DNA of 5,144 bases from NCBI GenBank assembly GCA_025936195.1, contig JAICTW010000254.1:1-5144 (forward strand), read 5' to 3'. The notes under the pieces were generated by a model, which ran no database searches, had not been told where the DNA came from, and worked only from the letters and a program-made list of their open reading frames with translations. The position numbers were made by a program, and so were the translations under genes. Shown piece after piece: positions 837 through 2,871 of the stretch (its first letter is position 1; each line of letters starts with the position of its first letter). This stretch comes from Flavisolibacter sp. GTDB taxonomy: Bacteria > Bacteroidota > Bacteroidia > Chitinophagales > Chitinophagaceae.

Positions 837-1181
837 ATGATGGCTCGCAAAAAGGTTTTAATCATTGATGACGAAGTGGACCTCTGTCTTTTAATGAAGA
901 CATATTTCCTCCGTAAAAACTACGAAGTGTATATTGCCCACACTTTAAGCGATGGAATGTCCCGCCTCAATGAAATTGTTCCCGATTATTTGTTTATTGA
1001 TTATAATCTTCCGGACGGATTGGGCTGGGATAAATTGCCCGAATTATATCAAAAATATCCTAATATACAGTTTCACTTGATCAGCGCTTTTCGTCCTACC
1101 ATGCCCTCCGAATTAGACGGAGCAAAACTTACAGTTTGGGAAAAGCCGATCAGTTTGAAATCGCTGGATAATTTCTTTTAA
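837..1181 (+). CDS. Stand-alone receiver-domain response regulator (CheY-like)
   Basis: The 114-residue protein is a single REC domain with no output domain. After MMARKK come the first beta strand VLIIDDE, with the acidic pair D11-D12 that binds Mg2+, and the phosphoacceptor D55 in FIDYNLPDGLG. The conserved hydroxyl residue is S83 in HLISAF, and the Lys-Pro pair K103-P104 (VWEKPIS) closes the active site. All residues needed for phosphotransfer are present. The last helix is short: the protein ends at LDNFF, about 10 residues earlier than a typical CheY. The start may be at 837 or at the next codon (840); no in-frame start lies upstream because TGA occurs at 822-824. A tiny frame, ATG-AAT-TGC-TGA at 821-832, precedes it by 4 bases and has AAAGGA upstream. 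No histidine kinase is adjacent, so the partner is unknown. The divergent YtxH gene and the shared upstream motif suggest a stress-response setting. Confidence 0.88.
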   Translation: MMARKKVLIIDDEVDLCLLMKTYFLRKNYEVYIAHTLSDGMSRLNEIVPDYLFIDYNLPDGLGWDKLPELYQKYPNIQFHLISAFRPTMPSELDGAKLTVWEKPISLKSLDNFF

Positions 1182-1187
1182 GGCACT

Positions 1188-1216
1188 CCCCCTTTCCCCT
1201 AAAGGTGAGACTTAGG
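1188..1216 (+). repeat. Left arm of an imperfect inverted repeat bounding a 356-bp element
   Basis: This arm starts with CCCCCTTTCCCC and ends with GAGACTTAGG. Its inverted partner at 1514-1543, read on the minus strand, starts CCCCCTGTCCCCC and ends with the identical GAGACTTAGG. By hand alignment 26 of 30 positions match, with one single-base gap. The arm begins 6 bases after the response regulator stop codon. Inside it, CC-TAAA-GG can form only a weak hairpin. Similar CCCCT..AGGGG boxes are familiar as dispersed intergenic repeats in Bacteroidota genomes, but that is recollection and not a search result. Confidence 0.75.
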
Positions 1217-1227
1217 CTTTAGTGTCT

Positions 1228-1427
1228 TTACTGATTGCAGCATTTCTTTAAGGTAAGTTCTATTCTGCGGATTACTTCTTCTGATTTCAGTTTTGTCTCC
1301 TCAGTGGAGAGTCGTAGAAAGATTAATCCTTCTTGCGATAATTGCTTTTGTCTTATCTCGTTATTTTGTTTTACTTCTTCCTCTTTGTAAATGGACAATC
1401 TTCACCAAAGAACATCTTTCTTTTCAT
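1228..1427 (-). pseudogene. Remnant of a DUF559-type endonuclease-like gene, internally deleted and frameshifted
   Basis: From ATG at 1427 (minus strand) the frame reads MKRKMFFGEDCPFTKRKK and stops at 1373-1371. A start of the MKRKMFFG kind is common in DUF559 proteins. In another frame, open from 1401 to the stop at 1230-1228, the text EEVKQNNEIRQKQL is followed by GLIFLRLSTEE, then EEVIRRIELTLKK and the end CCNQ. That is the characteristic C-terminal half of DUF559 proteins: a polar helix with IRQK.L, the G(L/I)xFLR(F/L) strand, then the (E)EVIxxIE helix. Whole family members are about 110-125 residues; here about 15 N-terminal and 50 C-terminal residues remain. The middle, which would hold the PD-(D/E)xK-like nuclease residues (around DFYC and EIDG..H), is missing. 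The protein cannot be active. The remnant lies entirely between the two inverted-repeat arms, which suggests it was the cargo of that element. The identification rests on pattern recognition. Confidence 0.65.
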
Positions 1428-1513
1428 TAGTAATTAGCTTTCTCTAAGCATTGTTCAATGGAAAAGAAAAACGTTGTGCTTTAAAGAGAAATGAAAAAGA
1501 AAAGCATCTCAGA

Positions 1514-1543
1514 CCTAAGTCTCCCCTTCAGGGGGACAGGGGG
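1514..1543 (-). repeat. Right arm of the imperfect inverted repeat
   Basis: This is the partner of 1188-1216 (26 of 30 positions match, ending in identical GAGACTTAGG on its own strand). It contains a compact hairpin, CCCC-TTCA-GGGG (1523-1534). Its outer edge GGGGG (1539-1543) pairs with CCCCC at 1551-1555 across a 7-base loop, and that loop holds the stop codon of citrate synthase. The arm is therefore fused directly to the 3' end of the citrate synthase gene. No target-site duplication is evident: the bases outside the arms are GCACT on the left and TTTCAA on the right. Confidence 0.75.
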
Positions 1544-1555
1544 TTTCAATCCCCC
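1539..1555 (-). terminator. Possible GC stem-loop at the citrate synthase 3' end
   Basis: On the minus strand, GGGGG-ATTGAAA-CCCCC forms a 5-bp all-GC stem that straddles the TGA stop codon, and it is followed by the further hairpin of the repeat arm (CCCC/GGGG, 1534-1523). There is no T-run, so it is not a standard intrinsic terminator. The stacked GC hairpins between convergent genes could still slow polymerase or protect the 3' end of the message. It may equally be just a by-product of the repeat. Confidence 0.3.
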
Positions 1556-2871
1556 CAAATCTCATCCTCGCCCTTCAGCCATTTCTTCACCAAACGGGTA
1601 GAAACAGACTTCGGACGTTCGAGAGGGAAATTTAAAATACGATCCCAGCATAAGCCTGCCAGCACACCCAGAGAACGGCTTACTCCAAACAACACCGTAT
1701 AAAATTCATACTCCACCATTCCGTAGTGTACCAACAATGCCCCACTATGCGCATCCACATTGGGCCAGGGATTTTTTATTTTTCCCAGTGATTGTAAGAT
1801 TGGAGGAACCGTTTCATAAATGTTCCAAACCGTTTGCACCAATGGATCATCAGGCATGTGTTTCTTTCCAAATTCCATTTGGGCAGTAAACCTTGGATCG
1901 GTTCTGCGCAATACAGCATGACCATAACCGGGAACCACTTTGCCTTCACTCAATGTTTTCTTTACGTATTCTGCAATTTGATCGCTGCCGGGTAATTCCG
2001 TTTTTAATTCTTCACGCATTTCAAAGATCCACTTGATCACTTCCTGGTTGGCCAGTCCGTGCAGCGGACCTGCCAATCCATTCATACCAGCAGCCAGACT
2101 TAAATACGGATCGCTCAGTGCCGAACCCACCAAATGAGTAGTGTGTGCCGATACATTGCCACCTTCATGATCCGCATGAATGGTCATGTACAAACGCATG
2201 AGCTCTTTAAAGCTATCGTCTTCATATCCCATCATGTGGGCAAAATTGCCAGCCCAGTCCAGCAGGCCATCCGGCTGAATATGATCTCCGTTTTTATATT
2301 TTCTACGATAGATGTAAGCAGCTATCCGGGGTAATCGTGCAATCAAATCCATAGCATCGTCAAAAACAACATCCCAATAATCTTTCTTGCTCATGCCGGC
2401 AGCATAACGTTTGGCAAACTGACTTTGGGTTTGCAAAGCCATAATGGCCACAACAAACTGCGTCATCGGATGTGTATTGACAGGCAATGCTTCAATAGTG
2501 GCAAAAACATGATTGGGCACATGACTGCGGCGTTGCCAAACAGAAGTTACATGTTGCACATCTTCGTCGGTCGGCAATTCACCAACCAGCATTAAATAAA
2601 ACAACCCTTCGGGGAGTGGCTCGTTGCCGCCTTCGGCCTTGGGTAATTTTTCCTGCAATTCGGGAATAGAATATCCGCGAAAGCGAATACCATCCTGCGC
2701 ATCCAGCAAGGACGTTTCTGTAACCAATCCTGTAATGCCGCGCATTCCCTGGTAAATTTGAGAGAGATGTACCTCACCAATGATTTTATTTCCGTGTTCT
2801 TTTAGCAGTTCCTTTATTTCGGAAGCAAGCGCATCGCCTTTTTCTTTAAACCTGTCCTTAATAATTCCCAT
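1546..2871 (-). CDS. gltA: Citrate synthase, mitochondrial/eukaryote-like type
   Basis: This enzyme condenses acetyl-CoA with oxaloacetate to give citrate, the entry step of the TCA cycle, in the cytoplasm. The 441 residues match the size of mature animal mitochondrial citrate synthase and the related bacterial group. The catalytic triad is visible: H271 in GPLHGLANQE, H318 in GYGHAVLRRTDPRF, and D373 in NVDAHSGALL. The HADHEGGNVSAH block (232-243) and the substrate-binding arginines near R322 and R399 (SRSLG) are also present. The N-terminal section GMRGITGLVTETSLLD and RFRGYSIPELQ is typical of this type, which lacks the NADH-regulated domain of the E. coli enzyme. ATG at 2871 is preceded by an AT-rich stretch without a Shine-Dalgarno. 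A weak TAACTTTA (minus strand, 2918-2911) resembles the Bacteroidota -7 box TAnnTTTG, but has no well-spaced -33 partner. The last five codons (EIWGD) and the stop run into the repeat element and may have been replaced by it. Gene symbol by function; the protein is not closely E. coli-like. Confidence 0.95.
   Translation of the reverse strand: MGIIKDRFKEKGDALASEIKELLKEHGNKIIGEVHLSQIYQGMRGITGLVTETSLLDAQDGIRFRGYSIPELQEKLPKAEGGNEPLPEGLFYLMLVGELPTDEDVQHVTSVWQRRSHVPNHVFATIEALPVNTHPMTQFVVAIMALQTQSQFAKRYAAGMSKKDYWDVVFDDAMDLIARLPRIAAYIYRRKYKNGDHIQPDGLLDWAGNFAHMMGYEDDSFKELMRLYMTIHADHEGGNVSAHTTHLVGSALSDPYLSLAAGMNGLAGPLHGLANQEVIKWIFEMREELKTELPGSDQIAEYVKKTLSEGKVVPGYGHAVLRRTDPRFTAQMEFGKKHMPDDPLVQTVWNIYETVPPILQSLGKIKNPWPNVDAHSGALLVHYGMVEYEFYTVLFGVSRSLGVLAGLCWDRILNFPLERPKSVSTRLVKKWLKGEDEIWGD

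Follow-up and report, generated by a model that had tools for sequence, protein, structure and literature searches.

Gene arrangement and inverted arms in the window

The window, that is, the whole stretch of 5,144 nucleotides that was analysed, contains a response-regulator gene and a citrate-synthase gene in convergent orientation, and the gap between them occupies positions 1182-1545. A response regulator with 95% identity over 84 residues is present in L001, a locus in genome G007, and the citrate synthase is 91% identical to those of two Flavisolibacter loci, L001 and L002, in keeping with a soil-type bacterium of the Chitinophagaceae kind. The features within and beside the gap are listed in Table 1.

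Table 1. Features of the intergenic gap and its neighbours, numbered from the first nucleotide of the window.
Feature	Position	Strand	Evidence
Flanking response-regulator gene	837..1181	+	ORF; 3' end at left arm
Left arm, response-regulator side, degenerate hairpin-type inverted repeat	1187..1217	+	24/29 complementary to right arm; weak fold
C-terminal part of DUF559 gene remnant	1228..1401	-	Profile match, positions 60-105; inside 134/195 match to L104
Start-codon end of DUF559 remnant, other frame	1392..1427	-	24/31 match to L104 (weak); translation
AT-rich leader from right arm to start codon, as in L104	1433..1511	-	Alignment with L104
Right arm, citrate-synthase side, left arm's type, better preserved	1513..1544	-	With adjoining bases 44/49 identical to L104 arm
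Flanking citrate-synthase gene	1546..2871	-	ORF; 3' end at right arm

The left arm begins about 6 bases past the stop codon of the response-regulator gene and the right arm 2 bases past that of the citrate-synthase gene. Since each arm adjoins the stop codon of a flanking gene, the two arms enclose the gap, as had been claimed in the first-pass annotation of this DNA. That annotation had also given the arms as matching at 26 of 30 positions with the last 10 bases identical; the arms are real and their inner ten bases (GAGACTTAGG) are identical, but the best ungapped inverted pair (1188-1216 vs 1514-1542) matches at 24 of 29 positions, so that the earlier count was slightly generous. The arm pair was reported by a repeat finder as 45 nt at 73%. 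RNA folding gave -12.5 kcal/mol for the right arm and -3.7 kcal/mol for the left arm; among four arms folded as RNA, three folded well and the left arm of the window poorly. When 1000 segment pairs with this geometry were drawn at random from related loci, 1 scored as high as the arms. Taken by itself, then, the pair would be only moderately surprising as a chance product, and this question is settled by the existence of homologous arms elsewhere. Upstream of the response-regulator gene, at positions 683-697 and 795-810, another short inverted repeat was noticed by eye (ATCATACCAAAC / GTTTGGTATGAT).

A deleted DUF559 gene between the arms

The presence of a dead DUF559 gene in the gap, as annotated earlier, was not borne out by the Pfam profile test, in which a Pfam-A search of the window ORF at 1228-1398 gave no DUF559 match, but it was upheld by a profile built from 40 DUF559 domains of relatives and by DNA homology. 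The family-built profile matched the window ORF with 21.0 bits (domain) over profile positions 60-105 of 107, the E-value being 1.4e-6 over the 125 stop-to-stop stretches of at least 25 aa in the window and 1.4e-4 in a larger search. At the DNA level, a more complete copy, its arms almost the same as those of the window, was found in G007, the closest relative found, at locus L104, where the arms match each other without a difference for 33 bases and the gene has one in-frame stop. The window matches L104 at 44 of 49 positions in the first arm, at 134 of 195 across the C-terminal gene half and the second arm (E 9e-15) and, weakly, at 24 of 31 at the start-codon end (E 0.008). A shorter copy in the same genome, L228, matches the gene end and second arm of the window at 93 of 120 bases.

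The stretch between the C-terminal part and the start-codon end has been deleted in the window copy, with the junction at about 1392-1404, and the middle of the gene, including the catalytic core, is missing. It follows from the L104 and L228 matches and from the loss of the gene middle that the window preserves a dispersed element in a dead form, derived by internal deletion. Comparison with these relatives identifies positions 1187-1544 as the decayed copy, with an internal deletion, of an element that is bounded by inverted repeats and encodes a single putative DUF559 nuclease. The earlier observation of such an element with a dead DUF559 gene is confirmed; the annotation was right in substance, and the status of the window copy as a dead remnant is supported. 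As to a viral source, no relative was found in one scan of viral contigs with citrate synthase.

The orthologous gap in relatives

The gap between the citrate-synthase and response-regulator genes was variable among relatives in which both genes are adjacent. An empty site, for which the annotation had suggested looking, was observed at L003, with a gap of 13 bp, and the gap at L002 measured 110 bp and had no clear arms. At L001 it measured 695 bp, with a related arm adjoining the citrate-synthase gene, and at L060 (Cnuella takakiae) arms of the window type lie round a terminator in sequence with some masking by N. At L010 the terminator lies between arms of a different type. A terminator or host hairpin pair was considered as an explanation of the arms and rejected: some relatives' arms do enclose terminators, but arms within open frames are left unexplained by it.

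Distribution of DUF559 domains and their arms

Matches to the DUF559 profile (PF04480) above its cut-off came from 7 of the 9 near relatives and from 76 of 147 genomes sampled from the family of G007, and the profile was also found in 170 of 296 genomes sampled from its phylum. All 25 hits of the near-relative search were examined, of which L087, L092, L100 and L105 were weak matches in long helicase-like frames, and 29 new loci and 60 further regions, part of the listed hits, were examined from the search of the 147 family genomes. With identical domains counted once, exclusion of L087, L092 and L105 gave 111 unique domains, and subsequent removal of L100 (16 bits) gave a survey set of 110 different DUF559 domains, which were drawn from 62 family genomes and are biased toward high-scoring, mostly intact hits.

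Terminal inverted repeats, taken as inverted repeats with a score of at least 15 within 500 bp, were present round 58 of the 110 domains, vs 0 of 300 random placements, where the highest score was 14; at other loci such arms do enclose intact DUF559 genes, as the first-pass reading implied. Arms were detected for 30 of the 63 domains in long frames, for 28 of the 47 standalone domains and for 14 of 29 further domains from the phylum sample. A strict inverted arm pair was absent in 52 of the 110 domains, some of which have two unlike hairpins, an arrangement that is overlooked by strict inverted-repeat scoring and was recognised by eye in L084 and the metH inserts. Perfect arms of 40, 37 and 42 bases were found round L082, L097 and L355, respectively, and the window's own arm type is carried by L220 and L104. 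Taken across loci, the comparison defines a family of small elements, each with a single gene for a predicted DUF559 nuclease that is enclosed by a pair of inverted hairpin arms, mostly rich in C, and their sites in relatives lie between genes and also in frame within conserved genes.

In-frame copies and filled or empty alleles

Of the 110 domains, 63 lie in a longer open frame, meaning one that extends past the domain by more than 90 residues at one end or both; a few of these may be so placed by chance. Scanning of 28 different in-frame proteins (20 with NCBIfam and 10 with Pfam, two being shared) gave hosts that include leucyl-tRNA synthetase (LeuRS, two sites), methionine synthase (MetH, two places), methionyl-tRNA synthetase (MetG), chorismate synthase (AroC), CinA, IspG, HsdR, two helicases, acetylglutamate kinase (ArgB), adenine deaminase, IcmF, homoserine kinase and a PglX-like protein. 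Among the reported NCBIfam and Pfam hits of these 28 proteins there was no splicing (Hint) domain, and no intron or intein was seen. The arms are translated in the in-frame copies, for example as LTPSPSPKERG.

The metH insert was present in three of the four genomes of one genus, in frames of 1068, 1057 and 1076 residues, and the fourth genome, with a frame of 895 residues, was without it. The first leuS site was filled in 5 of 30 leuS loci, taken from 143 genomes with a match, and the 28 readable loci of the second site comprised 22 empty, 5 arm-only and 1 with a DUF559 insert. Empty alleles were thus found at leuS and metH as well as at the window's own gap. A search for target-site duplications at metH and leuS, whose filled and empty alleles have diverged, revealed none.

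Some individual loci were also recorded. At the second leuS site, lone in-frame arm-like palindromes occur in L305, L307, L319, L323 and L331, and the whole DUF559 insert occurs in L315. L140 and L142 have two DUF559 inserts, at both leuS sites, in one frame of about 1320 residues, and the HsdR frame of L136 contains a GIY-YIG domain at residues 265-331 in addition to its DUF559 insert.

Arms without a gene

A 22-base arm pattern, with up to 3 mismatches, was found in 55 copies in G002 (Cnuella takakiae), 31 in G007, 11 in G006, 6 in G004, 3 in G003 and 1 in G005, and in none in G001, G008 and G009, the reversed control pattern giving 0 in all 9 genomes. The arms are not unique to the window locus, a point on which the earlier reading depended. 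Neighbouring copies at most 1 kb apart in G002 and G007 were inward-facing in 18 of 18 cases, with spans of 124-753 bp. Thirteen arm pairs were read (7 in G007 and 6 in G002), and no DUF559 profile match was obtained in any of them; L228 retains the gene end.

The DUF559 enzyme

Putative catalytic residues are close to invariant: R, Q, D, E and H were conserved in all 110 domains and a second D in 109 of them. Of 14 close pairs, 6 allowed computation of dN/dS, which came to 0.07-0.25, several being near saturation. The DUF559 profile matched 3hrl (N. gonorrhoeae NGO0050, E 2e-32) and 3r3p (the homing endonuclease I-Bth0305I, E 2.4e-6), and with an AlphaFold2 model of pLDDT 83, Foldseek matched 3hrl, 3r3p (1.5e-5) and the Vsr structure 1vsr (E 2e-3). 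Profile and model matches together suggest that the DUF559 nuclease is a hydrolytic enzyme with an EDxHD/Vsr-like fold. DUF559 is assigned to the EDxHD homing family in PMC9403480, and EDxHD enzymes are described in PMC3943268.

Relationship between arms and nuclease and traces of movement

In the 58 armed elements, the median arm score was 26 within an element and 11 between elements. Arm similarity tracked nuclease similarity, with a Mantel r of 0.44 over 1600 pairs from which same-site pairs were left out, and of 0.43 over 1576 pairs when only pairs from different genomes were compared, 0 of 2000 permutations reaching the value in either case; this co-variation may partly reflect genome kinship.

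Two copies at different places in G073 were identical at 473 of 484 positions (98%). The right end of the shared tract is the right arm and its left start lies near an internal palindrome; on the left side the outer arm is common to both places, and the DNA between this outer arm and the shared tract is different. The pattern, seen in this single case, would be expected from recombination between arms into palindrome pairs already present. The nuclease tree (107 columns, poorly resolved) clustered by insertion site, with 27 changes vs 57.9 when shuffled and 0 of 200 shufflings as low, indicating that inheritance or homing within a site predominates and that moves to other sites also occur; much of the distribution may reflect vertical inheritance. 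No insertion event was caught in the genome comparisons.

Proposed mechanism

The mechanism that we consider probable, with a probability of roughly 0.65, is homing into palindromes, in which the nuclease would cut arms or palindromes, the unit would be copied in by host repair, and copies that have no gene or carry deletions would be used in trans. Comparison of the loci has brought out an arm-bounded unit, co-variation of arms and nuclease, dispersal, empty and filled alleles, deletion derivatives and a conserved putative active site. From these we infer that the nuclease may recognise its own arm class or a palindrome-like target and cut at the recognised arm or palindrome, after which host recombination repair would fill the break with a copy of the arm-gene-arm unit. 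Single arms, paired arms and units with deletions, including that of the window, would be non-autonomous passengers used in trans, comparable to REPINs used by RAYTs, and within genes selection would keep only those insertions that leave the frame open. The proposal is weakened by the 52 of 110 domains that have no strict arm pair, by the poorly resolved nuclease tree with its clustering by site and by those citrate-synthase gaps in which arms lie round a terminator, as if they had been inserted singly. The first-pass annotation had called the window unit perhaps homing-like or mobilised in trans; the nearest solved relatives of the enzyme fit homing and the gene-less and deleted copies fit mobilisation in trans, while mobility itself is suggested by comparison.

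True transposition, by which the whole unit would move end to end, its arms serving as terminal repeats and DUF559 as the subunit that cuts, seems unlikely. It agrees with arms that match within and not between elements, with the sharp outer ends and the deletion derivatives, and with the restriction-type nuclease fold of DUF559. Against it, no target-site duplication was recognised between the diverged alleles of metH and leuS, and the shared DNA of the G073 pair starts at the internal palindrome and not at the outer left arm. The relatives of DUF559 are hydrolytic nucleases that are not known to have a strand-transfer step, which also counts against transposition.

The arms could also be ordinary REPs moved by Y1 transposases, with the DUF559 gene caught between them. 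Y1 (RAYT-type, PF01797) transposases were found in 10 of the 14 genomes searched and are likewise flanked by palindromes, 19 of 30 loci scoring at least 15, with none of the listed Y1 frames longer than 230 residues, and the inward-facing arm pairs are REPIN-like. When arm sets were compared by class, however, all 58 DUF559 sets were nearest to DUF559 arms (99% at matched sample sizes) and 17 of the 19 Y1 sets were nearest to Y1 arms, the other 2 being ties. In addition, no Y1 match was found in G003, G006, G008 and G009, of which G006 and G008, as MAGs possibly incomplete, have armed DUF559 elements. Carriage by Y1 transposases was rejected on arm class in this search and is considered highly improbable.

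Palindromes of a further type were noted round small GIY-YIG genes, which likewise lie between inverted palindromes (L275, L276, L281, L284, L297 and L302); these are of a TGTCAT type unlike DUF559 or Y1 arms. Among the armed loci that were scored, TGTCAT or its complement occurred in 5 of the 8 with GIY-YIG, in 1 of the 19 with Y1 and in 1 of the 58 with DUF559. The TGTCAT-type palindromes resemble the CGTC repeats of PMC3733652, under which Rickettsia palindromic elements (RPEs) are treated and which are reported there as having no dedicated transposase.

It is also very unlikely that DUF559 serves the host as a selected Vsr-like repair gene, the palindromes being incidental regulatory hairpins or terminators. 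VsrA of Caulobacter, a DUF559 protein, is given in PMC12907096 as a predicted mismatch-repair endonuclease tied to a DNA-damage response; the low dN/dS values and the frequent position of arms beside stop codons point the same way. Such a function does not account for in-frame copies within more than 12 unrelated genes with empty alleles in relatives, for the near-identical copies at two places in G073 or for the patchy presence in about half of the family genomes (76/147). An inverted repeat formed by chance round an unrelated ORF, to which the 1 in 1000 random pairs equalling the window arm score and the missing Pfam match might point, is ruled out for practical purposes because arms and gene remnant have homologues in a near relative, at L104 and L228.

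Comparison with known systems and significance

The elements share with the REPtron or REPIN-RAYT system (GTAG REPs and a Y1 tyrosine transposase) short hairpin palindromes, inward pairs, many gene-less copies and one gene between arms; they differ in that the gene encodes a predicted hydrolytic nuclease and not a Y1 (HUH) transposase, in the arm class and in the frequent in-frame copies. With the EDxHD homing endonucleases, such as I-Bth0305I, they have in common a catalytic domain related by sequence and fold and empty and filled alleles at fixed sites, whereas the DUF559 units are bounded by palindromic arms, occupy many unrelated sites, have gene-less derivatives and show no intron or intein. 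Vsr mismatch endonucleases are alike in fold (1vsr), but the DUF559 elements are arm-bounded, multi-copy and patchy. Terminal inverted repeats and internal-deletion derivatives are also known from MITEs and insertion sequences, from which the DUF559 elements differ in having no known transposase class and no target-site duplication found at metH and leuS. RPEs resemble them as palindromic DNA that lies in frame in protein genes and is translated, as at the arm-only loci of the second leuS site (5/28). We know of no nuclease gene in RPEs, unlike the DUF559 elements.

Among the matches listed in the open-access literature on palindromic repeats, REPIN/RAYT, Vsr/EDxHD homing and GIY-YIG, no such nuclease-palindrome element was found; in the literature searched, DUF559 is mentioned by 14 papers, by none of them in title or abstract, and never together with "inverted repeats". 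The window remnant appears to belong to an undescribed kind of nuclease-palindrome element. A broader proposal, offered tentatively and at somewhat less than even odds, is that Bacteroidota harbour a class of minimal mobile elements in which homing-type nucleases (DUF559 and, in parallel, GIY-YIG) have cognate palindromes. Gene-less pairs would be their non-autonomous offspring, the copies in essential proteins would be unspliced in-frame inserts, and the TGTCAT (CGTC-like) palindromes would be those of GIY-YIG.

If this is true, the DUF559 nuclease would act for its own palindromes as RAYT does for GTAG REPs, and the members of a common, mostly uncharacterised protein family would be selfish nucleases with a repeat class of their own. 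It would supply an enzyme for genomic palindromes that are independent of RAYT, and would account for extra domains within proteins such as LeuRS and MetH. Since harmless bacteria provide the arms, the empty alleles and nucleases whose active sites are intact, the spread of REP-like palindromes would become directly testable.
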